Source of the DNA: Apostichopus japonicus
Taxonomy: Eukaryota > Echinodermata > Holothuroidea > Aspidochirotida > Stichopodidae
Assembly (NCBI RefSeq): GCF_037975245.1
Contig: NC_092561.1
Coordinates: forward strand, 11,655,001 to 11,719,000
Direction of reading: 5' to 3'
Length of the DNA stretch: 64,000 nt
Shown here in pieces: positions 9,101-28,889 of the stretch; position 1 is the stretch's first letter, and every line of letters begins with the position of its first letter. The notes under the pieces are model-generated. The model ran no database searches, was not told the origin of the DNA, and saw only the letters and a list, made by a program, of their open reading frames with translations. The translations under genes were made by a program, and so were the position numbers.

Positions 9101-12100
9101 CCGGGTAATCAATTTAACGTTTTAGGGTATGTGTTAGTTACTCCTTAAAGGCATTGAAGACTGTTGTCCCAACAGCATGCAGCCATCTGAAAAAGTTAAC
9201 TTTCTTTTGCTTGCAAGTGATGTTTGTTCGTGTCGCTAAAAAAGACAGACAGTAATGAAACGTGATACCTTGATATCTTTAGCTGGACCTGAGATGTTCA
9301 TCGCTGTATAGTTTATACACTGTCATGTGGGTATTGACCGCAGCTGTATGTACTGACTGTACACTAGTGTCTAATTACCGACGGTAGCAAGCTGTGTTTG
9401 TATTTTCTGGGATCGATGGTGGTGTCTAACACTTCTGTTACACCTCATTCGAAACTAGGTCAGATTACCGGCATTAGACGTTCTTTTTGCGCGAGTCTTC
9501 ACACCCTTTTAAAGCTAGTCCATGCTGACACACGTGGTTCAGAACTACAGAGCAATAAAAAAGTAACATTCACTCCTTGAAGTTACTCCATGCTGGTTGC
9601 CCTTATAGATGTGGCAAGGATATGGACGAGAAACTTCACTTCTGTTGGTTGCAAAATTCCATACACCATGGAAGCATGAAACTCACAAAACTAGTGTTGT
9701 AGAGGGGGAGCAAAGTCTATGTTAAATGTATGTTCTACGCCTCTGTCCCTGCTGGAATGGCCAGTTTATCTGCCACAATGAAGAATTGTTTGAGGTTCAA
9801 TTCTGGTCCGAGAGATAGGATGAAAGGCTGCCAATATTGTCCTTGTCTGCCCTGTGCTGCGCTCTCAATATCTGTGCCCTCCTGTTTGGTGAAGATAAAA
9901 ATAAATGTGAGAAAGCAAAATGGTATAAATCAAAACATTCTTAAAAAAGATATGTTGAGAGGTAGAGTTCGATGTGGACTAGACTAGAATAATTTTAAGG
10001 AGAGAATGGAGAAACAAGAACATGACTGGCATTGTACGAAGGAGATATATCAATTCACGATAGGCAGCAATATGTCATCCATGGCGGGTGAGATGTGTTG
10101 TGTGAAGGTGGATTCAAATTCAACCTAACATTTACGGGTTATCATGTTGATTTTGGCAGGTACATGGTTACCAAGCAAGGTTTGTTATTAGTTGTTTTCA
10201 GAAATTTCTCTTTTTAAGGATAAATTGTTCACGACATCTCCTGATTCTATTACATCAGCATAGAAAACCAGTGAACAAGGAATATGATTTACATTTTAGC
10301 CGACTGGTTTCACTAATATGTCTATCTGCTTGTAAAAGAAACTGATTTCATAAGATTAGTGGATGGTAATATTACTGTAAAATCTTATAATAAAGACTGA
10401 TGGCCCACTATATGTTTAATAAAATAACAAAAGCATACCAATTCTTTTCCAGTTTCAACATGATTTAAATACAATGGTAATGGTTTAACAGAATCGTGTT
10501 AGCTTCATGCTGTAATGGCTGTAGCAGTCACTACATTTTTTTCAAATAATTAAGGGTGCTTACAATCTATGCATAATAGTACTGTGTTTTGCAATTTCTT
10601 GAGCATTATTATGTTCAAGTATTTGTAATGAGGTTAACCTAGCTAGATAACCTAGATTCATTTGGGACGATCGAGTACATATTGCAGTCCTGACAAGCGT
10701 GCTTATTCGCCCGACGATTGAGTACATATGCAGGACAGGCGGGCTAATTTGCCCGACGATCTGGTACCATGATAGCTTCATGCTGTAATGGCTGTACACT
10801 CTTAAAAAGTTGGGTAAAAATATTGACCAACTTTCAACCAACACTGGGTACATATGTAACCGCTCAAAAAATGGGCAAAGTTTGCCCAACAGCAGTTGGG
10901 TAATGCATTTACCATGTAGTTGGGTAAATTATTTTACCCATTATTGGTTAATCCATAAAGTTAGTTGGTCAATTTGTTGCCCAAGATTGGTCAATGAATG
11001 AAATTGTATTGGATTGTTTTTACTCAATGTTGGTTGATTGTTACAATTAGTTGGGTAATTTGATACCCAACATTGGTTAATGAATCAAATTTTATTTGAG
11101 TGATTTTACCCAATGTTGGTTGATTGATACAGTTAAATTGGGCAATTTGTTACCCAATATTGGTCGATGAATGAAAAGTACACTAGGGTTTTAATATATT
11201 AACACATAAAATAGTATTAAATTCTCATTTTATTGATGAAAACAGCTTCAAAAAGCTTCACTAGAACTAACAACACATAAAATGGTTTCACAAAATTTAG
11301 CAACATGGTATTGTTGATTGCAGTAATCTATTAACTTACTTTATATCATATTGTGTCAATATGTTCATTATGAAAATGTATCAATATATGCTTTGCAAAT
11401 TTGCTTTAGGACTTGGAACATGAATATTGACTTAGAAGTTCATCATGAAACTACAAGTTATTCTCTTCATGGATAGAATTAACCTTAACATACACAACAT
11501 TGTTTGGTTCTTGTCCACTGACCAATTTGTAACAAGTGTTGTTTACAGCTGAGCCTTTTTTAGCAGTTATAGGTGATTGTTTTCACTACACACTCCATTA
11601 AGTGCTAAGAAATTTGAGCACAGAAGCAAGAAGTTCAACAGGAAATGGCAAGTCCTCATAATTATATCATGATAATTATATAGATATAACTGGTAGTGGA
11701 AACAAATATGGCTCAATGTTAGAAAATGACCACAGCTGTATGTACTGACTGTATACTAGTGTCTAATTACCGACGGTAGCAAGCTGTGTGTGTATTTTCT
11801 GGGATCGATGGTGGTGCCTAACACTTCTGTTACACCTCATTCGAAACTAGGTCAGATTACCGGCATTAGACGTTTCTTTTTGCGCGAGTCTTCACACCCT
11901 TTAAAGCAAACACCTATTGCTTTCAGTAGGGATGGTTGTGGCAGAGCATGTCTCTTGAGAATAACATAGGCCTGGGATGGTGTTAGGTTGGTGCCTCTGC
12001 ACACTACAAAGGGCTGTGGCGTCATGTCCACATCGACAGTCCTTTGCGTATTCTTCTATGGCAACATCCTCCTACAGGTATAAAAGAAAAGGTACCATTT

Positions 12101-15100
12101 ATTCCTGATTGTGACTGTAATTTATTCCTATCTGTGACAGGGACATTTCAAATCAAAGAAAATGCAAATCAGGATGTGACACCTTTTTACTAAGTACTAA
12201 CCTTAGTTAGACAGGACAAGAAAGAATGTAACTGCTGAGCACACACAGCTACTGTAACAGCATCTCTGACCAGATTCCAGAATAGACAAATTATGAGAAC
12301 CTGGAATTTCCGTCACATTAAGCACAAGATATTTTCTCTCATAATAGGTGTAAATTCACATTCATAAAATAAGTGACCTTGCAACTTTAAACAGATTGAG
12401 AATAACCTTTTGGCCATGATGCCATTTTAGTATTTATTTCATGTAGCAACTTTGAACATTCATACATTACAGTAATCTTACTAGTTTTTCCTCAACCAAA
12501 TACTTAGACTCTGCAGTGAAGGTCAAGCGAGACATCAACATGCATAACAGTTTTGGTAGGACACGGCTGGGATTGGAAATTGAAATATATCAACAAAAAA
12601 TTACCAAACAATTTTTTTATTATGCCACACAACTTGGTTAACCAAACCAAGAGGTCATCAAAAGTTCATTATGGTTTTAATATTGTGGATAAATGCATAC
12701 ACCTAGCCTTAGCATAGGCCCCTTTAAGTTTTATCACTCAATTCATTTATACCTGAAAAAGAAAATGATAGAAGGATGAGACATATTTTTACATGTCAAT
12801 GTCTTGTCTTTCTGATCACATAGTCTCGGGCCTACAGATACGCCTACTGTACCAGTTTTGTGGAAATTTTGCAGACGTAGGATCTACACTTAAACCATAA
12901 ATTTATGAATATTGTGACCCCCAATAAAAATAAACATTTGTTATACTATGGCGAGGTATAAATTAGTAGTTTCTTGTCCTGCCTACATCCTTTTGCCCAC
13001 TGGGTCAATTTCCTTCCCTTTTTTAATTTTCAAATTTGAACAACCAATTTACCCAAATTTTTACCACACTCTCTGTAGGTTAATTGCCTGCACCCTCACT
13101 TTTCTGAACAGTTAGGACGAGAAACTATTTTATTTATACAAATGTGATCAATATGGCCCAGGCAATACTAGCATTTATTTAAGTTATATTTGTAATATAT
13201 GACACAACTATATTTGTAATAGTACTGTAGGCCTAAGTAATATATGACACTCAAACTAAGTTTTCCAAAACAATTTTCTGCAAGCTAGTATGAAGTGGAC
13301 TAAGTTAGGCCTATCCTTAGTGACATCTTAATAGTTTTCTTAACTTTGTTCTGAAAACTGACAAATGTGAGACTAGGACTGTCAAGTGTCATCAACATTA
13401 CTTATCCCACGCCAAACACAAGCATAACGCTTTACCTCCGTAGCCTAACATACACGCAAAGCGCGCTCTATCTTGTGCAGCAGAGTTAGGCCTGGCCTAC
13501 GCACGGGCTAGTCTGGGCTACGAACACAATATATACTGTTGACCTAACGTTTGGATATTTCCAAGTCTGTAGATGGACACATCCTAACGTTAGGCTAGGC
13601 CAAGTAATACTAGCAAATCCGTTTGGGGGTATGAATACATTATACTATACCTTCAAATGATTCCTTCAAGTCTTCTACCCCCAACTTCGTTGAAAGTGTC
13701 AACACATCACCATCATCAACCGGCGACGAGAAAGACATAATTCAAAATATACTCATGAATATACTCAAGAATATTCTATTGCATATTCTATTTCGATCCA
13801 TATGTACCGTATCTAGTAGAAGTGTGCATCACGTCGCAGCGCGCAACATGCCTTCACTAGTACGCCAGCGTAGTTAGTATACACGGATGTACGTACGCAA
13901 TGATCACATTGCAGTGCGAATTGTACGACAATATTTTGGCGGGAACATTGCCCAGACGTTGGGCAAATGGACTCGTATATATACAGGATAAACGTTGGAT
14001 AAATGTTTCCAACACCATTTTACCCATAATGGTTAAAGAATGGAAAAAACCAACATTTTCTTAAAACATCTCTACCCAACAAATTTTTGCCCAACGTTTT
14101 AAGAGTGTAGCAGTAACTACATTTTACAAATAATTAAAGGTGCGTACAATCTATGCATAATAGTACTGTGTTTTGCAATTTCTTGAGCGTTATTATGTTC
14201 AAGTATTTGTTATGAGGTAAACCTAGCCTAGATTCATTTGGGACGATCGAGTACATAATGCAGTCCTGACAAGCGTGCTTATTCGCCCGACGATTGGGTA
14301 CATATGCAGGACCGGCGGGCTAATTTGCCCGACGATCTGGTACCATGATAGCTTCATGCTGTAATGGCTGTACACTCTTAAAAAGTTGGGTAAAAATATT
14401 GACCAACTTTCAACCAACACTGGGTACATATGTAACCGCTCAAAAAATGGGCAAAGTTTGCCCAACAGCAGTTGGGTAATTTCTTGAGCATTATTATGTT
14501 CAAGTATTTGTTATGAGGTTAACCTAGCCTAGGCCTAGGCTAGATTCATTTTGGGACGATCGAGTAGGCCTACATATTGCAGGACAAGCGTGCTTAGTCG
14601 CCCGGCGATCGGGTACATATGCAGGACAGGCGGGCTGATTTGCCCGACGATCGGGAACATATGCAGGACCGGCATGCTTATTCGCCCGACGATCATGTAG
14701 ATAGGCCCCACCAATTATAACAATAGCCTAGGCCCTATTTGCTATAGTGCAGCCTAGCTAGGCCTACCTCGCGCACAAGCCTAGAATAACCAACGTTACG
14801 AACTGTCAAGCTTTTATTCTGTATTAATTGGAGAGAAAAAAATACATACATACCCTCGAACACTGTTATCACTTCTTCGTGGAAACCTTTATTTGTAAGA
14901 AAAGTTCTTAAAGACTCAGCCATTGCTAATTTATAACCTTTACTCTAGCTTAGACATACGGTCGTCTGTCTCGTTCATGCCTAGCTGTGTGTACGGCGTG
15001 CGTACGTACAGTACATCGAGTACCTGGCTAAGCGAAGAATATAGTAGTATATATCAGGGTTGTCCAACCTTTTGCAGAGGAGGGCCACATGGAATGATTA

Positions 15101-16168
15101 TGATGAAGGAGGGGGCCGCATGAACCCTACGCTCGATTTTTCGATATTTTTGCCCGAAGCCCAAGGCAACAAAATGTGAGCACTGCGCGCGGAGCGCACT
15201 GATTTATTTTCCTTCCTGATAAAACAGATGAATAAAGTTCAGCCGCCCCCCCCCCCACCTCCGCTAAGAGAGTGTCACACAAACTGACCTGTATGCAGTT
15301 TTTTGGACCCAGAAGGTTCGAATGATTGATTATATAGCTTCAAATTGTTATCAATAAATCTGCTCACTAAAATTTCGCACCGTAGAGCATCTCTGGCGGG
15401 CCGGACGCAACCCTGCGGCGGGCCGGACTGTGGCCCGCGGGCCGTAGGTTGGACAACCCTGGTATATATGTTCCCAAATTGTAGCGCTCGTTGTCACTTA
15501 TTTTTGTGCGGCGTATTTGCAAGTTTTCGGATGACGTAGGCGCATTTATATTCTCTGATTGGATACATTTTTCAGTGGAATACAGAGACTGAAAATGGTA
15601 AGATGCCATGCCACATGTGATTAGCTGATTGGTTAATACAGTCAGTCCAAAACAGCGACTGAACGGTGTAACTGATAATATAGTCTAAGTAGGTGTTTCT
15701 CAGTCTAAGCTCAGTGTTTAACACTGAAAAAAATTTCAGTCTCACAGAAGACTGAATTCTTCAGTCTATCATTTTAAGAGAGTGACATTACGCCTGCTTA
15801 CTTCAAGTTCACTTCTGCTGCAAAATGTTGCTAGGAACCGAATGCAAATTTCACCAGGATGCTTATAATATTAATTCCTGTCTCATCTGTAAATTGTAAA
15901 GTTTTCCTCTGGACTATCTTCTTAACAAGTTCTCGTTATAATATCTTTTAAAAAGCAAGTCAGAATCGGTTACACTGACAGTGGTTCAGAGGGAAGATGG
16001 CGGTGGATCGATGGAAGTACTAGCTCTCACACCAGATGGGATAGTGGTCAGCCGGACAATGCCGGAAGCCGTCAGCACTGTGCGGTGATTTGGAAAACAT
16101 CTACTGATTACGGAAAATGGGATGATGAAGGATGCGGCAACAGCCGGGCATTCATCTGTGAATACTAG
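3005..16168 (+). CDS. Secreted C-type lectin, QPD (galactose-type) CTLD, three exons
   Basis: CDS is join(3005..3114, 4414..4594, 15956..16168), giving 167 aa. Both introns have GT-AG borders and compatible phases (2, then 0). Residues 1-20 form a signal peptide (MKTSLVIVVLLVSAFAETYG). The rest is one long-form C-type lectin domain. It starts with the CPKFW...HCY signature (C24, C35) and continues with C53, C139, C157 and C165 in the usual 1-4 and 2-3 pattern. A seventh cysteine, C65, has no obvious partner and could link subunits. The sugar/Ca2+ site is QPD (129-131), which in this family indicates galactose-type binding. The second Ca2+ motif, usually WND, is WDD here (152-154). The length is normal for a single-CTLD secreted lectin, probably an innate immune or adhesion lectin. 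An alternative donor at 4568 would also keep frame but drop nine residues. Intron 2 (11.4 kb) is swollen by transposons. Confidence 0.92.
3115..4413 (+). other. Lectin intron 1 (phase 2)
   Basis: AT-rich intron running from GTGAGT to acceptor ...ACACCCAG. A 63-codon open frame at 3799-3990 has no recognisable content. No transposon or RNA gene was seen here. Confidence 0.85.
4414..4594 (+). CDS. Lectin exon 2: CTLD core
   Basis: Residues 37-97, including SYC (C53), the unusual C65, the conserved ASLVTVDSSEEN segment and WW (85-86). The upstream phase fits exon 1 exactly. Donor GTACTT at 4595 gives phase 0 into exon 3. A stronger-looking donor, GTAAGA at 4568, is also phase 0 and would give a product nine residues shorter. 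Confidence 0.88.
4595..6945 (+). other. Lectin intron 2, part upstream of element A
   Basis: Non-coding intron sequence before transposon A. It holds the 26-bp palindrome, C and G tracts (5051-5063, 6603-6617) and a pyrimidine-rich stretch at about 6483-6575. Just before A there is an imperfect 83-bp-spaced duplication (about 6755-6812 and 6838-6893) starting ATTAGCAAAACAC. Short open frames around 5426, 5811 and 6136 have no recognisable content. Confidence 0.6.
4762..4787. repeat. Perfect 26-bp palindrome in lectin intron 2
   Basis: The 26 bases centred on TATA (arms ACCATGGAGCTAT) are identical to their reverse complement. This could extrude as a cruciform or mark an old inverted junction. 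No matching element ends were found nearby. Confidence 0.85.
6946..7245. repeat. Left subterminal AGACTGAA motif cluster of element A
   Basis: About fifteen direct and inverted copies of AGACTGAA/TTCAGTCT are packed into 300 bp next to the left terminus. A matching smaller cluster flanks the right end (15640-15775). Such clusters commonly bind transposase. That role is inferred here. Confidence 0.75.
7246..9334. other. Element A interior, no gene recognised
   Basis: AT-rich sequence between the left subterminal cluster and the 181-bp block. Short open frames (for example 8687-8878 and 8891-9085) are low complexity and show no domain. This is the 3' side of the minus-strand gene remnant of element A. 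Confidence 0.5.
9335..9515 (-). repeat. 181-bp block shared by elements A and B, copy 1
   Basis: Nearly identical to 11727-11907, with about six differences including two 1-base indels. It lies downstream, in minus-strand terms, of the last-exon remnant of A. In B the same block contains the end of the coding exon and the 3' flank. The rest of A and B is far more diverged. It may be a conserved 3' module, a gene-conversion tract or a small mobile repeat. Confidence 0.8.
9735..9881 (-). pseudogene. Last-exon remnant of element A gene, QPF domain
   Basis: 147 bases give 48 residues and an early TAG stop at 9737-9735. Aligned with the exon at 11852-12055 of B, it keeps QPF, then Gly, Leu, Gln and Ala-x-Pro at matching spacing, but lacks the terminal CFK motif present in B. 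The acceptor is well formed (CACCAAACAG). Confidence 0.55.
11727..11907 (-). repeat. 181-bp block shared by elements A and B, copy 2
   Basis: Second copy of the block at 9335-9515. Here it includes the final codons and stop of the QPF/CFK exon of B (stop at 11854-11852) and the sequence beyond. Confidence 0.8.
11852..12055 (-). pseudogene. Last exon of element B gene, QPF...CFK domain
   Basis: An uninterrupted 68-codon frame to TGA, coding-like in character. QPFVV begins about residue 14 and GVCFK about residue 48, as in the C-terminus of SAMD3-like proteins (family recalled, not searched). The final 17 residues are Lys/Arg-rich. Confidence 0.55.
13651..13738 (-). pseudogene. First exon of element B gene, SAM-like start
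   Basis: ATG at 13738, 29 codons and a phase-1 donor GTATAG. It lies 370 bp inside the right end of B, so transcription would run leftward from that end. It is homologous in placement, phase and sequence pattern to the first exon in element A. Confidence 0.5.
14373..14480. mobile_element. Truncated left end of element B
   Basis: The first 108 bp of B are repeated almost exactly after TA, then join the target repeat at TTTCTTGAGCA instead of continuing. It sits at the same position in copy 3 of the 274-bp repeat as B does in copy 2. It therefore probably arose by tandem duplication of the occupied site followed by internal deletion. Confidence 0.8.
14854..14923 (-). pseudogene. First-exon remnant of element A gene
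   Basis: ATG at 14923, 23 codons plus one base, donor GTATGT. It encodes MAESLRTFLTNKGFHEEV and ends TVFE. Phase and pattern equal those of the first exon in B. Confidence 0.5.
15055..15461. mobile_element. hAT-like MITE with 8-bp target duplication
   Basis: Inverted ends CAGGGTTGTCCAACCT... and ...GGTTGGACAACCCTG flank 407 bp of GC-rich sequence with no usable gene. The 8-bp duplication GTATATAT lies at 15047-15054 and 15462-15469. CAGGG...CCCTG ends and 8-bp duplications are typical of hAT elements. It is inserted in element A, between its first-exon remnant and right end. Confidence 0.88.
15470..15955 (+). other. Right end of element A and end of lectin intron 2
   Basis: Contains the right subterminal AGACTGAA/TTCAGTCT cluster and terminus of A (to 15782), then 173 bp of intron to the acceptor TTTTAAAAAG at 15955. 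The polypyrimidine tract is weak but precedes a perfectly phased, diagnostic lectin exon. Confidence 0.7.
15956..16168 (+). CDS. Lectin exon 3: sugar-binding half of the CTLD
   Basis: Seventy codons plus TAG encode residues 98-167. It contains EGRWRWIDG, QPD at 129-131, HCAVIW (C139), WDDEGC (152-157) and the terminal FICEY (C165). This is the Ca2+- and sugar-binding half of the domain. The acceptor at 15954-15955 gives phase 0, matching exon 2. Confidence 0.92.
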   Translation, partial: QVRIGYTDSGSEGRWRWIDGSTSSHTRWDSGQPDNAGSRQHCAVIWKTSTDYGKWDDEGCGNSRAFICEY

Positions 16169-16394: not shown

Positions 16395-16714
<320 letters not shown>

Positions 16715-16938
16715 ACAAAACATAACAAAACATCAAATCTTACCACAATGTTACCTTCCGAAAGACATTTCAGGACGATTTAAATAGCCCCCAACCCCCA
16801 GCCCTTGCCTATTTTAACAAGTGCGAGAGGCAGGGGGTAAACGTGATAATATACAATACAGTCCAAAGTCAATTGGGATGTCAAATGGTAAGCTTCCCTC
16901 CCCCTCCCCACCTTGGGATGGGAAAATTTAACAATCTT

Positions 16939-17863
16939 ACCATTGTCCATATACTAACCATTGTCCATATACTTACCATTGTCCATATACTTACCATTGT
17001 CCATATACTTACCATTGTCCATATACTAACCATTGTCAATATACTAACCATTGTCCATATAATTACCATTGTACATATACTAACCATTGTCCATATACTA
17101 ACCATTGTCCATATACTTACCATTGTCCATATACTAACCATTGTCAATATACTAACCATTGTCCATATACTAACCATTGTCCATATACTTACCATTGTCC
17201 ATATACTTACCATTGGCCATATACTTACCATTGTCCATATACTTACCATTGTCCATATACTAACCATTGTCCATATACTTACCATTGTCCATATACTAAC
17301 CATTGTCCATATACTAACCATTGTCCATATACTTACCATTGTTCATATACTTACCATTGTCCATATACTAACCATTGTCCATATACTTACCATTGTCCAT
17401 ATACTTACCATTGTCCATATACTTACCATTGTCCATATACTAACCATTGTCCATATACTTACCATTGTCCATATACTTACCATTGTCCATATACTTACCA
17501 TTGTCCATATACTAACCATTGTCCATATACTTACCATTGTCCATATACTAACCATTGTCCATATACTAACCATTGTCAATATACTTACCATTGTTCATAT
17601 ACTTACCATTGTCCATATACTAACCATTGTCCATATACTAACCATTGTCCATATACTTACCATTGTCCATATACTTACCATTGTCCATATACTTACCATT
17701 GTCCATATACTCACCATTGTCCATATACTAACCATTGTCCATATACTTACCATTGTCCATATACTTACCATTGTCCATATACTTACCATTGTCCATATAC
17801 TCACCATTGTCCATATACTTACCATTGTCCATATACTTACCATTGTCCATATACTAACCATTC
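16939..17863. repeat. 18-bp minisatellite, about 51 copies
   Basis: Tandem ACCATTGTCCATATACTT with the last base mainly T or A and occasional variants. Because 18 is a multiple of three and the unit lacks stops, it gives a 357-codon plus-strand frame (repeating HILTIV) and minus-strand frames repeating MVSIWT. These have no start context or non-repeat domain and are not called as genes. Confidence 0.97.
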
Positions 17864-20452
17864 CTTTTTATTTACATTGTGACAACCCAAGTCTTGACTT
17901 TAACTGGAAGCTATAGTATCTCTCCCTCAATGTATAATGATTATACCATAGATGTTAATAAGGTTATAAACTTAAATCAAATTTTCTTCAAACCTAGCTG
18001 GCATGGAGTTATCGCTACTGAAGTTTGGCATTGTACTCAGATATTTCCAAAATATTGGATTGCCACAAAATAATTGTTTACATACAATGATGAAGCACAT
18101 CATTTAAAGTACTCTTCCAATCAAACAAATGCTACAGCAGCATGTTGCGCAAGGAAGGGAAATCGATTAAAGAAGAAAAGACAGAAATAAGATCTGGCAG
18201 ATAAAAATAATACTGCATCAGCAACACAACAAATATAGCAGCAACATCATCCCCATAGCCATTAATCAAACCAATACCCACCATTCCCCTACAGCCACAA
18301 TTTCTTATACCTGCCCCCTCATATGCAATAGGAAAATGAGAACTGATAATAGATGAGTTAAAGACTGCTTCGTTGATACTTACTGTAGATAAGCAAGACT
18401 TTAAGATATTGTTTTATCCCAATCACCACTAGCAGCTACTTTGTTGAGTTGTCCATACTTACCATTTATTCACAGTGGTAATCAAATATGTCGCAAATAA
18501 AATCACACAACTACAAGAAATACCTCAAGGCAAGCCAAGTTTGTTTTGAGCAACAAAATCAAAATTGTGTTTCAGCTGTACTCTTTGACTTGTAATTGGA
18601 TATTTTGGTTTGGGTTTTCACTGATCTGACTCTAACATATGGCACATACTCAGTACATGGTGAGTTGGACTAGGCTTGGTTTTATACCAAGTGGACGTGC
18701 CCTGTTATATGTTACTCAAGACAATAAATATTGTATTAAAAGTAAAGTATATGAACATTGAAATGGTAGGTGAGAACTTCTCCAAAGATGGCTTGTCTGC
18801 ATGGAGGCAATGTTACTGAATTGTTTTGATAGCACTCCTCCAAACCAACCAATGTCACAGCATGTTAGGCAAGAAATGATAGCTAAATAGGAGAAGAACA
18901 GAGAATTTAAAAATAAATTACAGATAAAAACAACTATAACAGCAAGAACAATTGCAACAATATTAGAAAAACACGACAACATATTAATTGCAACATATTA
19001 ATAGCAACATACTAATCAAGCTAACTTTAAATGGCTAATTTACAAAGATAATTAACAGCTCAGTGATAACTCTTCCTGCATGATTTTCCTGAAATGGTGC
19101 AAATGGAATATAGTATAATTGCCGCCAAACCAGAAATTCCTCTTCGAATTCACAGCCACATGATTGGAGCAATGTCAGTCGGGATTAAATGCCATGATTG
19201 CTTGACTGCATGGACTATCCACGTGAATATCATTTCTATAGCATTTCTCCCTTACACAGATTACATGTGTAAATAAACAAGCATAAATGCTAGCCTTCAC
19301 AAATCCATGCATATACCCACAACATTAATACCCTGACTCTTTGTAGAAGAATCATCGAACATGCGCATAAACCACAGGATGATGTCTGTTAATATCAATC
19401 ATATCATACAAAGTCCTTAATTAGTTGCAAAGTTGCAAGAACTTTTAAGTTAACTTATTTTTAAATTGTTTTGTTGAATAGGCAGCCAGCAGACTAGGGA
19501 TTTCAAGGTATCACTAATGTGGCAAACTTTAGAAGCGTGGAAATCAACTGAGAAGCACCTTCCATAAGTCTGCTACCTTTCCATGGGACACAGCAGCAAG
19601 ACCTACAGTAGCTTACACCCATGTCATGAAAGTATTATTCTAACCGAGCTACTTCACCAGTTATTGAATGAACCACTTTGATCATGCTGCAATCCCATTG
19701 GACATAGGAGTAATGTATATTGCCAGAATGCTGAGTCTGTATTTAAACTGTGAACAGGACATGATCCTGCTTTGTCAAGTCTAAATATTCTATTGGTTCT
19801 GGTGAGGCACAATCCATGGCTTGCACAATGGCAGACTGACATGAGAATAATCCATACTGACTATCTCAGCCTGGAACTGTCTGTATACAACTCCTTCACT
19901 CCGCCTGCCATCTCCGAGAGTTTCTTCATCTGCAAGACTTGGGTTGGAGACAGTTTTCCTGGCAGATGCAGCAAGCAAAAGTAGATGCTGGCCGGCCCTG
20001 TCAAATACCGAGTTTCCTGCAAAAAGCAAATCAATATGCGCGAAATATGCCAAAATCATGCAGAGATAATGTAGGTAATGGTTCTAAAGTACAAATGTAA
20101 TCTTGTAATAAACCGTAATGGCAGCAACATCATCTTTGTAGGTTACATTAGTATCCAATGTTAACCTTTTATTGTAGAGACTACAAGTAAAGTACTTAAT
20201 AAACATTAATGCTTACTAAGAAGGGCAAAAACTTAATTACCTACATATGTTATGCTTAATATTTCCTTGTTTATAGAAGAAGAAAAAAATTCATACCAAT
20301 GTTTTTCAGCAGATCATAAACTTTATAGTCCTTTAGCTATAATATAATCATTCTTTATTCCAATGAATTTGAGAATTTAAACCTTTGAAAATGAACCATT
20401 AAAATTTTTCGCCAAAACATCATCAACTATACTCTTTTAGCTCTTAAATAAA
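17864..20452. other. Intergenic region, no convincing gene
   Basis: AT-rich sequence with scattered short frames. Degenerate related segments near 18110-18190 and 18780-18910 (both with GCATGTT and GGAGAAGAA/AAAGAAGAA themes) suggest old repeats. A minus-strand segment at about 19850-20020 follows a good acceptor (TTTGCTTTTTGCAG) but has no recognisable product. Confidence 0.5.
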
Positions 20453-20475
20453 TTTAAAGGTCAAGCGACACGTAG
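20453..20475 (+). repeat. Left terminal inverted repeat of element C
   Basis: TTTAAAGGTCAAG then CGACACGTAG. It pairs with the right end with one mismatch in the first 22 bases. Confidence 0.8.
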
Positions 20476-20598
20476 ACTTGACTTTACATAATATTAAACT
20501 TAACAATTCTTACATTAACAAAAACCCAACACCGCGAATTTTTCCCGTCTCCAAAGGGGTAGAAATTGGTAAAAAGTACTATTACGTAATAGATTCAG

Positions 20599-20606
20599 TG
20601 ACGTCA
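20599..20606. promoter_or_regulatory. CRE-type motif TGACGTCA near left end of C
   Basis: A perfect TGACGTCA palindrome followed by a G run, 430 bp before the P2X7-like ATG. A related GACATCACGGGGGG lies at the corresponding place in the right end. Activity is inferred from the motif only. Confidence 0.45.
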
Positions 20607-20880
20607 CGGGGGGAGCGCAGAAGAGTGCAAACTGTATATGTTCTGCGTAGTGCATTGGGTATGGAGAAATCTCAAACTTCTCGAAAATATTACCTTTTTC
20701 AGCAGTCTGTTACAAGAAAGTTAAGATTTGGATTAAGATGAAAAAACACAAATTGATACATAAGACATCGAACAAAACATCCATTGACTTCTATTTTCAT
20801 AAATTCTTTGCATTTTCTTCCTATCAAGCAACATAAACTCCGCAAAAATCGACTAGATTGACTCGTACAGGGAAAGCCGA

Positions 20881-20902
20881 AAACAAATGACGTCATTTGT
20901 TT
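20881..20902. promoter_or_regulatory. 22-bp perfect palindrome centred on TGACGTCA
   Basis: AAACAAA, TGACGTCA and TTTGTTT together make a perfect 22-bp palindrome 129 bp upstream of the P2X7-like ATG. This is a likely bZIP (CREB/ATF) site in the promoter of the transposon-borne gene, judged from motif and position. Confidence 0.5.
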
Positions 20903-21030
20903 ACCAAGTCGAAAGTGCATGATATCGTCGCTTGGAACTGCATGCTTATTGCTGTGCCACATACAGTTTCTATACACGCACTGTAGTACGCATATATACA
21001 CAGCACAGCATAGCTTATACATATCGCGAA

Positions 21031-23945
21031 ATGGCTGCCGGTGGCATTGACACACAGTATTTAGATAGCAACGGCGAAGAAGTAAGGGAAATGGAGGACA
21101 TGGTGGACGATCGTGGGGAAGTTTTTCCCTACATGTTCGAACCGGAGACCAGCGAAGAGGAAGCGGGATCGGACAGCGATGTCGAAATTGATCGTCTTGA
21201 CGGAATATAACGGTAACGTTACGCCAAGCGTACTATACTGTATATAGGATAGTTGTGTCACTAGTTAGGCCTAGAACCGATAAATGCTTCCTAACTTTGC
21301 TCATACACTTAGCTAGCCAATTTGTTGATGGGGCAGCAAAATTAACAAAAATGTGCGGTCGAGTTAAGTTAAGGAAGCTACTATTTTCCTTAAAAGTTGT
21401 GGCAGCACATGCCCCAGGAACATGTCACATAGACATATCTTATTTGGTTAGTAGATTGAAGGAGCCAATTGGAAGAGTGCACAACAAATTCAGAGGTGGC
21501 ATATTATTAATTTCCTAGCAGTTGTAGGCCTAGTGGCAAATTAGTGAAGTTACCACAAATCAGGGAAAGGGTGGGTGGAGGGAGAAGGTGGCACCTCACA
21601 CCAGCTTTTTGTCATTTCCGCTTGAGCTAATTTCATAACCAGATTTTCTCAATCTAGGGAATGGATTCAGAAGTGGGAAAGAGTTGGAAACGAGGCAACA
21701 TCGGCCTGTTTTATTTTCCTTTGCAGCATTGTCCCAACAGAGGCAAGACTTCTAAGAAGAGGCTACTGTTACGTTGGAAAACGAGAGGTCTCGATAACTA
21801 ATTTTTAACGAGACACAAGCCTGGGTTCGTTTCCGTAAGGAACACAGACAAATTGACGAGTCTAGAGAATTTGAATGAGAACGTAAACTATATTGAACAA
21901 TGGATTTCGAACCAACAACAACAAGTGGTAATTACAAATATATAGAAAATTACTCACAAACTTAACAAGATAGGATACACTTTGAAACACGCTGGTCTCT
22001 TCCAACGGCGATATCCCTCAGCGGCCACGACCTTGATGACGACGATTCTCGGTCCGTTGTACCGCGAAATTCACTGGTCCTCGAAGAAGTTTCTCGCGAT
22101 CCCAGAAACAGCAGTCACCTTCTTTCCGGCGATGCTCCAAAATAGAAGACGGACTTCCAGCCACAATCGAGTGAAGCACAAGTCGAACTTCTCGCCGACT
22201 AAATATTACCAGAGTCAGTCCAAAATCAGCTTTATAGCCACCAACTCCTGGCGTAACGAACTTCCTCAACGGAGACAGAAACTCTTCACCTTCTCCGAAA
22301 TAACGACTGGAAAACTGTACTTTCACAGCAAAGTCCTCTTCAAACTTCTGAATGGAAGTGTAGAATCAATCTTGGTATCGATATCTCAATCCTTCAGAAA
22401 CTACTGGCAGTTGAGCACTGACGATATATAGTAGAATGGTGTATTATGTGTCGTCGCTTGTATTCGTTCAGAAACTGAGAAACTCTCCGATCTGGGCGGG
22501 TTTTTATACGATTCGCCAGGTCAAGAATCATCTAGATCTTTCTCGATACACCTGAGTAAAATCTCGACCCAGCCTCTCTATTCGCGGAAGTCCTTTGCAT
22601 ATCTCGCGAACATTCCAGAGAATCCACGAAGATGCGTGCACAGCTTACACGCGATTTCACGTAAACCGACGTTAACCCGAGACCAGCACGTCATCATAAG
22701 GAATATACCAGAACAATCGTGTATTATAACATTCTGACACGGTAACCGGACCTAATTTCTCAAATACTGATTTATCACGTAGGCAATTTCAAATACTTTC
22801 TATATTATAACATTAGGTTCCTCACTAGCAGTGACTAGCGTTAGGCTACAATGGGCCCTCGTAACACTACCCCCTCCTTACTAGTGATGTTACTTGTAAG
22901 GAGCTTCAACGGTAGATTGCCCTTCAGAGGTGCCCCTTTTTCTATTTTGACATGTTAGTACAATATGCCCCAATAACTGAGGTTGGCATGAAGTCATTGA
23001 ATTGGCTCTTTATTATTTGAACTGGTTTGTATTGTTTACAGGTGTCATTGTGGCCAATGTGCTGTGATGCCTACAGCAAGGGAGTGTAGATGCTGCAGCG
23101 AAATAGATAAGTAAGGACTGTGATGGATGAAGAAGGTGCTGCATGCATCACCTTACACCCAGGTTTTGAAGCTATGTGCCTGAACCCATTGTTTCTTCAG
23201 ACAGCCTACTACATGTACCGTCAACAGTATGGTGGACGTGCACAGGAAAACAGGATCCAAGAGTAAGTATAGAATACATTATTTTTGTTGTATACCTTTA
23301 TTCATTGCTCTGACCTGCTGTTGAAAGATGTAACAATACAGAGGGTGTATTCATAGTTTAGTTTTGTTTCGTTGTGAAAGGAATAACATTAAGATATAGA
23401 TTTGATCAAGAAAATTTGTGCACCATGTTCAAAACCTGCTTCTGATTAGGTCATTTTGTCCAAAAACTGGTGTAATGCCCATGAGGTTAACCCTTATCAT
23501 GCTGACTGACATATTAGTCATTAAGACTGAGCCATGGAACCAAATGCCACACAAAAAATGTCCACCATGCTTGTGCACGATCCATTTACAAATTTTAGTC
23601 CCCGAGATACAATGATCAGTTTGTATAAATGGCATAGCTAGGCTTACTTTAGGGGAGGCAGATTTAGGGGCCAAGCAAATTCTGGAAATCATATAGAAAT
23701 TTATTTTAAAATTGACGTCTCCAGATGGCTTCCAAGCTTTTGTGTGTCTTCATCTTTTATAGCTGGTTTTCATATGATTATTTTACAGGAAATACAGACA
23801 CACAGCATACAGACAACTTGCACGGATGAGCTAGCAGTTTTTAGGGAAGGAGATTTGTGTTGTTCTCCCATCCTATGCAGTAAGGAGGATCAGAGAAGCT
23901 TTACCATCTGAACAGTATGAAGGATTTAAATTATCAAGACTGTGA
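21031..23945 (+). pseudogene. P2X7 C-terminal (ballast) domain protein, broken copy
   Basis: Exons 21031-21212, 23042-23262 and 23789-23945, with GT-AG borders and phase 2 at both junctions. Exon 1 is acidic, with the family signature PYMFEPE. Exon 2 has CHCGQCAVMP, the zinc-ligand pair RCCSEI, then ACITLHPGF and LQTAYYMYRQQYG. Exon 3 has RHTAYRQ, FLGKEICVVLPS, RRIREALPSEQYEGFK and a normal stop. This order matches the soluble C-terminal domain of P2X7 and its many stand-alone invertebrate relatives. Three lesions break it: TAA at 21208, a one-base deletion near 23110 (the frame changes between EID and VRT), and TAG at 23832 where relatives have Trp. AATAAA signals follow at 24138 and 24145. 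It lies inside transposon C, and a solo LTR occupies intron 1. Confidence 0.85.
21767..22866. mobile_element. Solo LTR, 1,100 bp, with CTAC target duplication
   Basis: Starts TGTTACG and ends CGTAACA (inverted 7-bp ends with TG...CA). It is flanked by CTAC at 21763-21766 and 22867-22870. No internal retroelement genes, primer-binding site or second LTR are present, so it is a solo LTR left by recombination. A 4-bp duplication and TGTTA/TAACA ends suggest a Gypsy-type element. It lies in intron 1 of the P2X7-like pseudogene. Open frames inside (for example 21982-22431) are judged incidental. Confidence 0.82.
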
Positions 23946-24137
23946 GAATGTGGACTGTTTATGCCAAGTCATAGTATCATTTTTGCAAAGTTTTATAGAA
24001 ACAGGGTTCAGTCCTGTCTGTTTTGTGGCTGAATGGTGAACATTTTGGAATTCCAGCTTACATTTTTCTGGTTCATGGTATTAACTACAACCTTGGATGA
24101 AATTTTACATTTTCAAGTTTGGGAAGTACATAACAGT

Positions 24138-24150
24138 AATAAATAATAAA
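24138..24150 (+). terminator. Poly(A) signals of the P2X7-like pseudogene
   Basis: Two AATAAA hexamers (24138-24143, 24145-24150) about 195 bp after the terminal stop codon. Confidence 0.6.
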
Positions 24151-24827
24151 AACTCAAGTTAATGTTTTGTATGTATTCTCTCTTGTAAGCAAAGCTGTCA
24201 CTTCTAGTAGCCTGCCAACAAAATCTGGATGATTGAAATCTCAAATATACTAGGTTAAAATAGAAGAATAGTTTGAATAAAGTACCCTAAACCACTATGT
24301 CAATGGGATCTGGAGAGCTTAGGCTTTCATTAATAAAAGTGTAATGAGAATCAATCTGAAATTGTTCATTAATCCATGGAATATCAAGGATACTTGATCA
24401 TAAATGAGATATAAAAAAATCACATTTTATCCCATGCGGGGAACAAACAGCAAATTTCTGTCAATTCTTTTCGAGAAAAACAAAAAACTGGCAACATGTT
24501 TGAAACACCAAAGTTGCATACAAATAGTAAGTCAGCATGAAATTTATATTTATAAAGTCTGAGCTCTCTAGAAAGGAATACTTGTCATTGGACCTTTTTT
24601 TAAATATAATGTTATCATTACTAATAGTTAGTTACAATGGAAACCAGATGTAAGTAAAACTTGAATGTAAAACTTTAGCAACTTCCCTAAAGGCTGGTAG
24701 CGACCTGTTAATTAACACTGCTCTGCAGCTGTGCCATACACCATGTGAACAGACGATTCACAGAGTCGATTGCTCCCCACTACATTGAAACAAAATTAGA
24801 ACTTGGGAGGCCATCAACTACAGTACT

Positions 24828-25004
24828 TCAGCAAAGCTTTTGAAATCTGCTTCGGTGTTGTTTTATGGCATCCTCATTGTTCGGATGAACATAGGAGCTT
24901 GCAAGGGGTGGGGGCTCTTTTCTGACAGGAACAGGACACTCCTCTCCCAGAGTTCCACTTCTGCAGAAGTTGTTGCAAGCAGTCAAGAAGTTCCCATACA
25001 TAAT
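24828..25004 (-). CDS. Possible terminal exon of a minus-strand gene in element C
   Basis: Read leftward from 25004 after a strong acceptor (TTTACTATTCTACAG), an open frame of 58 codons runs to a stop at 24828. It includes YGNFLTACNNFC, EPPPLASSYVHPNNEDAI and KQHRSRFQ. The PPPL...P..E.AI..H..RF pattern resembles C-terminal ends of multi-copy uncharacterised invertebrate proteins, but I cannot name the family. It converges with the P2X7-like gene, as two transposon genes in opposite orientation would. The function is unknown. Confidence 0.4.
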   Translation of the reverse strand: MMYGNFLTACNNFCRSGTLGEECPVPVRKEPPPLASSYVHPNNEDAIKQHRSRFQKLC

Positions 25005-25709
25005 CTGTAGAATAGTAAAGATATGAAGAATAATATAATAATAGTTCATAAAAAACATACCATTTAGATAGAGGCATTCCAATCACTCCATTTCGGTCAA
25101 TAGGCATGGTACAGTTGTCGGTCAAGTCTTTGGATGCCCAACTAAGGCGACAGCTGAGTACACCTCAATTGGTGTGGATACATGGGTCAGGTTTTACCTG
25201 ACAACTTGTGCCTGAACAATTCCAATATATTTTTTACTGATTACAACAAAACCCTACACCTGTTTGTGCACCTAATATTATGAATTATGTAATCTTCAGC
25301 AGGATGTGTGGTCATTGTCTCAGTAGCTTAACCACTGTTTATGTAGTAAAGTAAACATGTGGACAGAGTAACATCCTGTCCCATCCCCTTGTAATCCATG
25401 GTAAGAGAGTGTATAAGATGCAACTTTCACCATTTGTATTCAGTAGCAGATATCCAGCCAAGTGAAGATATAATATACTCTGTTAAATCCAACTACTTGT
25501 TTGTGCCTTTATTTCTTGTTCACATACAGCTGTGACAACTCTACCAGATACAGTATGTATATGCTAATTGAAGTAAAGACTGATGGCCTCACCACACATT
25601 CCAGACTGCCCCACAGTGTTGGTGTCAAAATTAAAAATGATCCTTTTTCCAGAAAGTTATGGCACCAATTGATTTTCCAGACTAATCTACTATCAATCTT
25701 GAAAATTAC

Positions 25710-25858
25710 CTTGAAGGGTCATCTTTGTCATGTTCAGATGAGTTAACTGATGGAGTGTAGTCCGGACTACCTGGCGGTTTTTCGGTGTATCCCGATGTGG
25801 ATGCCACAGCAGCACACGGACCATCATCGCCACTCCTTTTTGTCTGGTAGCTTCCCCC
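25710..25858 (-). CDS. Possible internal exon of the minus-strand gene in element C
   Basis: From the C10 tract leftward to a donor at 25709 (AAG/GTAATT), one minus-strand frame is open for about 49 codons. It is Ser/Pro/Asp-rich (KRSGDDGPC, EKPPGSPDYTPSVNSSEH). It looks like a disordered linker. The upstream border is unclear because the homopolymer and a TAA lie just beyond it. A further decayed exon-like stretch with a perfect donor (AAGA/GTAAGT at 26535) lies at about 26536-26740 but has an in-frame TAG. Confidence 0.3.
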
Positions 25859-27103
25859 CCCCCATATACATGCCTCAATGTTTTACTGGTGGAGACTCCT
25901 TGTATCCCGTTCAAATCTGACTACTTAAATCTTTAATGCCTGTCACCACCCTCCCCTCCCCCATTTCCCAGCTGTTTTTCGGTAATATCAAGCACATGTC
26001 TATAAGATCATGCTACCTTTAGATGGAGATGTACATTCTGCAGAATCCTGCCTTTATTTTCACTGCAGTTGGTTGGGGAACAGCTTCTAGATTAATCTAA
26101 ATATTGAAAATTGGGAAAGAAAATAACAAGGAAGTTATAAAAGTTCATTTAAGAAAGCAGTTTGATATGTTTGAAAGTACCTGTCACAAGCGTTTTCTTT
26201 TGCAACAAAAATTGCAGCCCTACCAACAAAAATGGCAAAATATAAGGATGTCATTTACTGTGAAACATATGAGCTATGACTCTGAGTATATAGATAGGTG
26301 GGAGCACATTATAATATTGGGCAAAATGACATGTAAACATCTTATGCTTGTTATTCTGGATTTTTCATGATGTACCACAAATGAAAGTTAATATAGCCCT
26401 AGCCTACGCCTAACTTTATCGTCGCCGTACCTAATTTAGGGCCTAACTAAATTATAAGAATTAGCCTACTGTAAGATAGTAATAATACAAAGTTAGTCAT
26501 TGTTGTAGTAGGCCTAGGCCAGAAAATACACTTACTCTTTTCCGATCCAGCTTCGCAACTACTGGTCTACTTGTTTCTATATCTCCTCGAGATTTGAAGA
26601 TACTTTCTCCAAATAGAGAAGGAACGGCATTGTCTTGTAGACGGCGAGCTGTTGGTGTTCCAAGTCCAAGTTGCGCGGATAGGCGATAGGAATCGAAACT
26701 TTAACTGGTGAAGGGCGCACTGCACACATAAGATTCGCTCGAAGGTCCAAGCCAATCTTTACTTATAGGCAGCTAGGCTGGCTGAGTGCACTGGTACTAA
26801 GCTATCGCTGTATACAGTGTTTGACGAACACGAAACTTTCTTGTACTGTTGTGCACCCATTCTCATCTGATATTTTGTTTACTGTTCGTGACGTATTGTT
26901 TACGGCTTTGATCTCGGTTAGCATATAAGGCATACTTAGTTTTGGTAACATTGGCGGTTCCCCCCGTGATGTCATTATCTTTCGGAATTAGCTTGGTTAT
27001 TAACTTAATTAAAACAGCAAAGAAACAATTGTGGAACTCCAAATTTGGAATATAGGGTTTTGATATGAAGCTTTTCAATTTGTGTAAGTTTGAAGGAAAT
27101 CTG

Positions 27104-27126
27104 TTACGTGTCACTTGACCTTTAAA
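27104..27126 (-). repeat. Right terminal inverted repeat of element C
   Basis: Reverse complement reads TTTAAAGGTCAAG then TGACACGTAA, matching the left end at 22 of 23 positions. Confidence 0.8.
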
Positions 27127-27946
27127 TCTCTCAGGACAGACTATGTTGGCTCTGCCCTATCGATCAACAGGCCCCTTCGTAGTAACCACCCTTTCATAAT
27201 GTTTCCATGTCGATTACCTCAGTGCATATTTGGAACAACATTATTCACCATTGATATGTACTTTTTCAGATTAATGAGACATATACATATTAATTATACA
27301 ACACAACGTTACACTGACTTAACAAAGGCAATCTATGGACCATAATTGATGAATTACAGTTCGACTTGGCCATGGTGAAATGGCCATACCAATATTTAAA
27401 TAGGTAGTCACAGTAAGAAACTACTGTATAAAAACGACAGCAAGGTGAATTGACATGGTGCAAATTGTCTTGTTGATGATAGAATCAATATGCCATACAT
27501 TCACTGGATAGTTTATAACATACTTCCATCTCTTTCTGTCTTCGCAAGGGTTCCTTCCAGTGTATATCCATTATTGTTTGCATTAAGACACGGGTAAATA
27601 TAGGGCTTCCCCTCTGTGAAAATATAAGTAAATTAAAAAATGGATACTATCTGAGACACTTACATTATGCTGTGTTCAATAAATTATGTATCCCAATGTT
27701 GACATTTTGCTACAAAACATCATTTACAGAACTTAACAAAAGCACCTCTAAGAAATATATATGACACAAAAAATAGTATTTGTATTGCATGTGTTACCAA
27801 GACAGCAAAGCCATTTTCTCTTTAATTGGTGTGTCGACAGTAAGGAATGGCCTGAACCTCCCTGCCATCTGATCACTCCACTTAATTACCATTTCACCAA
27901 CCAAACAAGAATAAAGGGTTTCTGTAACTACTTCATCTGCCATATA
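27127..27946. other. Intergenic region, nothing recognised
   Basis: Unique-looking AT-rich sequence between element C and the 100-bp tandem repeat. Only short frames without recognisable content (for example 27761-28066, which runs into the repeat). Confidence 0.55.
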
Positions 27947-28541
27947 ATATTCTATCAAGTCAGTAGGCCTATACCTATAACCAACACTATTACATTATTG
28001 TACATATCTCAATGTGAGATATGCTCAATTATGCTAGCTAAATTTAATATTCTATCAAGTCAGTAGGCCTATACCTATAACCAACACTATTACATTTTTG
28101 TACATATCTCAGTGTGAGATATGCTCAATTATGCTAGCTAAATTTAATATTCTATCAAGTCAGTAGGCCTATACCTATAACCAACACTATTACATTATTG
28201 TACATATCTCAGTGTGAGATATGCTCAATTATGCTAGCTAAATTTAATATTCTATCAAGTCAGTAGGCCTATACCTATAACCAACACTATTACATTATTG
28301 TACATATCTCAGTGTGAGATATGCTCAATTATGCTAGCTAAATTTAATATTCTATCAAGTCAGTAGGCCTATACCTATAACCAACACTATTACATTATTG
28401 TACATATCTCAGTGTGAGATATGCTCAATTATGCTAGCTAAATTTAATATTCTATCAAGTCAGTAGGCCTATACCTATAACCAACACTATTACATTATTG
28501 TACATATCTCAGTGTGAGATATGCTCAATTATGCTAGCTAA
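27947..28541. repeat. 100-bp tandem repeat, six copies
   Basis: Six nearly identical 100-bp units. For example, AATTTAATATTCTATCAAGT recurs at 28041, 28141 and 28241. Each unit contains CATATCTCA, a 3-base loop (GTG, ATG in the first copy) and TGAGATATG, a 9-bp hairpin. The copies differ at only about one site each, so amplification is recent. Confidence 0.95.
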
Positions 28542-28889
28542 AATGGGTTTTACATATTTGTATTGTTCCATATTTTTTCCACTTAAACATATCATGTTAA
28601 CTACGCTTTCCAAATATGGACAGGCTAATGCCAGTGCTGTTGTGCAATTTTAATTATTTAAATTTTCTTAATTTTGAGATCTCCTGGTTAGAAATGTACA
28701 CTAAAAAGTTACAAAAAGCACGATATATTTATATGTTGGTAATAATTGTTACATGTATATATAACCAGATACAAATGCAGGATAGAACATTGTGATGCTA
28801 GTCGTAGCATGTTCATGGTAATGGGATGTCCATCTGGGCAGGCGTCAAAATGTGCTTAAAAAAAGACTTTCGTTGCACATATTTATAGT
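28542..28889. other. Intergenic region, nothing recognised
   Basis: AT-rich, no open frame of note and no clear repeat. Confidence 0.5.

Follow-up and report, generated by a model that had tools for sequence, protein, structure and literature searches.

A probable Kolobok transposon, decayed and carrying a P2X7 ballast-type gene, in Apostichopus japonicus

The segment from 20458 to 27121 of the window, the 64,000-nucleotide stretch of Apostichopus japonicus DNA analysed in this work, is very probably a dead and probably internally deleted copy of a Kolobok transposon of the Kol0 lineage, inserted at a TTAA site. It spans 6664 bp, or about 5.6 kb when a nested insertion is discounted. A dead Kol0 element is the best account of this segment because it joins the paired ends, the TTAA sites, a decayed gene for KolX, the ballast-like protein related to the C-terminus of the vertebrate immune receptor P2X7, and a probable THAP domain; the transposase assignment is drawn from a sub-threshold THAP match and from the company of KolX, not from a catalytic core. 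The original prediction, that a transposon with terminal inverted repeats carries the ballast domain, was right in kind and matches both the anatomy found here and the published Kol0 elements (Kojima and Bao 2022, PMC9587614). Spread of the ballast domain by transposons is already published in that article, and the element is a new, decayed member of an already described Kolobok class.

In the passages of PMC9587614 available to us, Kolobok elements are characterised by TTAA duplications and 5'-RR...YY-3' ends, and by a transposase whose DDD/E core contains C/DxxH and, in almost every lineage, a zinc finger. The Kol0 lineage, represented by Kolobok-1_XT, combines this transposase with KolX, a second protein of ballast fold which marks the lineage. 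According to the same passages KolX resembles the C-terminus of P2X7, the P2X7 tail is derived from KolX, and zebrafish Nanor is likely a domesticated KolX. THAP is absent from the main text of this article, while a THAP domain with C2CH and an AVPTIF box is given as usual in Kolobok transposases in part of a 2018 paper on frog elements (PMC6004289). Ballast domains are found across animals, as stated in part of Rump et al. 2020 (PMC7016195), whose main text contains no word beginning with "transpos"; the main text of PMC9004415 has neither P2X7 nor KolX. The segment described here carries the 4-bp TTAA duplication and the RR...YY ends of Kolobok and, identified through the Pfam profile PF20478, the second gene of Kol0. 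KolobokP-type long terminal direct repeats (about 450 or 660 bp) were absent between the two ends.

Table 1. Features of the element, in window coordinates; a slash in a donor site separates exon from intron.
Feature	Position	Strand	Details
TTAA target-site duplication, left copy	20454..20457		directly outside the element
Left terminal inverted repeat	20458..20474	+	17 bp, AGG at start
Left subterminal inverted motif	20599..20614	+	TGACGTCACGGGGGGA; 141 bp from left end
KolX exon 1	21031..21212	+	182 nt; donor ACG/GTAACG, phase 2
Insertion in KolX intron 1	21767..22866		1100 bp; TGTTACG...CGTAACA ends, CTAC on both sides
KolX exon 2	23042..23262	+	221 nt; cysteine-rich part CHCGQC...CRCC...CIT
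KolX exon 3	23789..23945	+	157 nt
Putative linker exon of minus-strand gene	25709..25861	-	donor CAAG/GTAATT
THAP-like piece, C-terminal half	26536..26769	-	VCSAPF...AVPSLF; donor GA/GTAAGT
Right subterminal inverted motif	26959..26974	-	147 bp from right end
Right terminal inverted repeat	27105..27121	-	17 bp, CCT at end
TTAA target-site duplication, right copy	27122..27125		directly outside the element

The plus-strand gene is composed of three exons, with boundaries inferred from phase and GT-AG sites; the introns between them are of GT-AG type and keep the phases compatible. Its ATG is found 573 bp in from the left end, beyond the left subterminal motif. Four single pieces of the plus strand of the element, together with the joined gene, were compared with Pfam. 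With X placed at the broken points, the joined protein matched P2RX7_C (PF20478) at E 1.1e-9 and 39.0 bits, against a cut-off of 23.5, over positions 75-192 of the 192 of the profile. Exons 2 and 3 alone matched at E 1.2e-8, and the pieces of exons 1 and 2, when searched singly, had no Pfam match. The KolX label is thus given through a P2X7 family model and not by direct comparison to a KolX sequence. The three-exon gene of P2X7 C-terminal type that had been proposed from the letters alone is therefore borne out, though in broken form: there is an in-frame TAA at 21208-21210 in exon 1, the reading frame of exon 2 is broken near 23111, and an in-frame TAG lies at 23832-23834 in exon 3. Interrupted at these three points, the gene in its present form is dead.

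In a search of the PDB, the top match of the KolX protein was the P2X purinoceptor 7 (9e3m, residues 477-592), which is weak at E 0.23. A search of this kind would prove nothing alone, because the P2X7 entries (E 0.23 and 0.28) are closely followed by unrelated chains from E 0.78. In the alignment with 9e3m five P2X7 cysteine columns are shared (477, 479, 482, 493 and 506); positions 498 and 499 face other residues, with the CRCC of the query close by. A tyrosine is found at the position of P2X7 Cys572, exon 3 reading LPSY where 9e3m reads LPSC; this cysteine is among the positions named as highly conserved in ballast domains in the consulted part of Rump et al. 2020 (PMC7016195).

The 1100-bp insertion in the first intron of KolX is a probable solo LTR, judged from its ends and the 4-bp direct repeat on both sides. 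Two of its ORFs were compared with Pfam and gave a single chance-level match (CoV_NSP2_N).

On the minus strand, the frame running from 26769 to 26536 reads PISKDWLGPSSESYVCSAPFTS*SFDSYRLSAQLGLGTPTARRLQDNAVPSLFGE..., with one in-frame stop, and is followed by a GTAAGT donor. With the stop read as X, it matched the THAP profile (PF05485) at E 0.039 and 15.2 bits, which is below the cut-off of 23.9. The match covers positions 46-87 of 87, up to the last position of the profile, and holds the AVPSLF box (AVPxxF). Against this match, unrelated sub-threshold Pfam matches of other pieces had comparable or lower E values (0.043, 0.0051 and 0.071). From its sequence the piece is probably one half of a THAP domain; it lies 352 bp inside the right end, beyond the right subterminal motif. 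It had no match in the PDB up to E 10, and its N-terminal counterpart was not found among the minus-strand pieces searched in Pfam. The ORF at 25709-25882, which contains the putative linker exon, had no Pfam match.

Pfam found no transposase or DDD/E core when all 41 ORFs of 25 amino acids or more lying on the minus strand within 23876-27138 were searched; the copy is decayed, and Pfam itself may or may not contain a model of the Kolobok core. The nearest match in the transposase search was Integrase_Zn at E 0.099, below threshold. This match was taken as chance, and the same holds for the sub-threshold matches to DUF3012, DUF2787, DUF2633, Phospholamban, wnt and the At5g54830-like family. 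In 20440-27140 as a whole the minus strand has 90 ORFs of 25 or more amino acids, of which 44 were searched in Pfam; the remaining 46 all begin below 23876, in the left half, to which a core could have been displaced. As to the minus-strand exon-like pieces of the original prediction, one has a recognisable, sub-threshold half THAP domain. Of the protein families suggested there (THAP, YqaJ, DDE), THAP was matched below threshold, and YqaJ and DDE had no match among the pieces searched. The mobilising partner that had been placed on this strand therefore stands as a probable THAP-type gene, itself sub-threshold, but not as a transposase core in this copy.

The same observations are compatible with a non-autonomous lineage, which would keep KolX and a THAP-only protein and borrow the transposase of another Kolobok. 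No DDE core was found in this copy and the minus-strand THAP piece runs into a splice donor, as such a lineage would have it. We consider this improbable, if the least improbable of the alternatives: the THAP piece has a stop, KolX is broken as well, and a single decayed copy cannot separate a lineage from a private deletion. A more specific version is more improbable still, namely that a Kol0 sub-lineage keeps KolX and a THAP-only protein without the transposase core, and that KolX together with subterminal CRE-like GACGTCACGGGGGG motifs forms a regulatory or docking module parasitising another Kolobok. If true, it would give the first defined role in transposition for KolX and, by descent, for the P2X7 ballast.

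The termini also speak for a Kolobok copy. The inverted ends of 23 bp that had been noticed at first, matching at 22 positions, are present at 20452-20474 and 27105-27127, but only part of these arms is repeat. The true terminal inverted repeat is 17 bp long, AGGTCAAGYGACACGTA, with 16 of 17 positions matching, and the outer 6 bp, made up of TTAA and two flanking bases, fall outside the repeat proper; TTAA counts as inverted for free because it is a palindrome. Both ends start with AGG, at 20458 on the left and at 27121 on the opposite strand on the right, which gives 5'-RR...YY-3' termini (AG at 20458-20459, CT at 27120-27121). Inside the 17-bp repeat, identity between the two ends drops to 2-8 of 20. 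The predicted subterminal motifs are present too, the left and right 16-mers matching at 15 of 16 positions, and this shared motif could be a candidate site for the transposase or for a promoter. A perfect palindrome of 22 bp occupies 20881-20902, between the left subterminal motif and the start of KolX. Its centre is TGACGTCA, which we take to be CRE-like.

These termini also bear on a transposon of the piggyBac type carrying a ballast-type gene at TTAA. The TTAA target site is shared, as TTAA duplications are common to piggyBac and Kolobok, and some piggyBac elements carry KolX-like proteins, as given in the sections of PMC9587614 at hand. In those sections RR...YY ends tell the two groups apart, piggyBac being without them, and the KolX-like proteins of piggyBac are without most of the seven cysteines. 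The AGG...CCT ends found here are RR...YY and thus of Kolobok type, a cysteine-rich core is kept with five cysteine columns shared with P2X7, and the probable THAP domain fits Kolobok. A piggyBac origin is accordingly very unlikely.

The chance expectation for the ends was obtained from 400 first-order Markov sequences of 9000 nt each. An inverted pair of 23-mers with at most one mismatch was seen in 0 of 400. Some inverted pair of 17-mers with at most one mismatch was present in 64 of 400 (9 of 100 in another run), and the 17-bp repeat alone is weak evidence because random sequences have such a pair this often. None of the 400 sequences had a 17-mer pair of this quality that was also flanked on each side by TTAA and carried RR ends. 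That a host ballast-domain pseudogene lies by chance between two unrelated short inverted repeats, a reading helped by the frequency of 17-mer pairs in random sequences and by a copy search confined to the window, is very unlikely in view of the TTAA sites and RR ends, of the second inverted motif inside each end, and of a KolX-type gene and a sub-threshold THAP piece between them.

Comparison of the element with the window by blastn (E up to 1) gave no other copies: apart from the self-match, the only hits were between its two ends and at two short palindromes inside it. The KolX read-through was searched in collections of viruses and prokaryotes, in which negative results say little: four stretches of viral contigs and twenty of genome contigs fitted a pattern, none of which was confirmed, and there was no match in phages. 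Rfam gave nothing at gathering score over the window.

Outside the element, a tandem array with a 22-bp unit, TCGGTACCGCACATTCGATTGA, occupies more than 33 kb from 30751 to 63999, up to the end of the window; the listed unit switches strand at about 32873. Many long open frames run through this array because three units make a reading period of 66 bp, and they are taken to be no genes. About 0.8 kb outside the right end, at 27945-28542, are six near-identical tandem copies of 100 bp (99% matches). To the left are found a C-type lectin exon on the plus strand (15926-16165, PF00059, E 2e-13), a perfect AAGA array of 80 copies (16395-16715) and, nearby, an 18-bp array of 51.5 copies (16936-17862). 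Two copies of a dispersed direct repeat, some 385 bp long and 95% identical, lie at 10520-10904 and 14106-14480, with more partial copies, and the hexamer AGGCCT is enriched (12 observed, 3.5 expected).

As a Kol0 copy, the element would descend from an ancestor in which two genes faced each other, KolX on the plus strand and a THAP-DDE transposase on the minus strand. In an intact element, the THAP domain would anchor the transposase close to the ends, and the enzyme would cut at the terminal inverted repeats, with rejoining at TTAA. KolX would travel along as an accessory protein; our guess is that it may act as a zinc-stabilised cofactor of the transposition complex and perhaps, as in P2X7, sense nucleotides.

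The element represents an independent sighting, made from raw sequence, of the transposon-borne KolX arrangement proposed as the origin of the P2X7 ballast. This suggests that, before a stand-alone P2X7-like gene in an invertebrate annotation is called a host gene, its surroundings be examined for TTAA-flanked ends. The "ancestral synteny" that ties ZCD genes to two markers, mentioned in the part of Rump et al. 2020 (PMC7016195) available to us, may likewise reflect, in part, gene pairs of transposons.

With the P2X7 ballast, the ZCD proteins and Nanor, as far as covered by the consulted sections of PMC7016195, the gene of the element shares the P2RX7_C domain and the cysteine-rich core. It differs from them in that no P2X channel part was found with it, in its location inside a transposon and in the change of Cys572 to tyrosine. 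With the frog XKol elements, as given in parts of PMC6004289, the element shares AG ends and TTAA and, probably, a THAP domain with an AVPTIF-like box. The full-length frog copies listed there measure 6763-13907 bp, and ten full-length copies all have AG ends, with intact TTAA except at one right end. The sequences of the terminal inverted repeats differ between frog and sea cucumber, and the main text of PMC6004289 has no word beginning with P2X. Set against Kol0 (PMC9587614), and by its published description rather than by Repbase families, the present copy differs in being decayed, in its unrecognisable DDE core and in its nested LTR-like insertion. It is alike in its TTAA sites, in its RR...YY ends, in the ballast-fold KolX carried inside and, probably, in a second, transposase-type gene.
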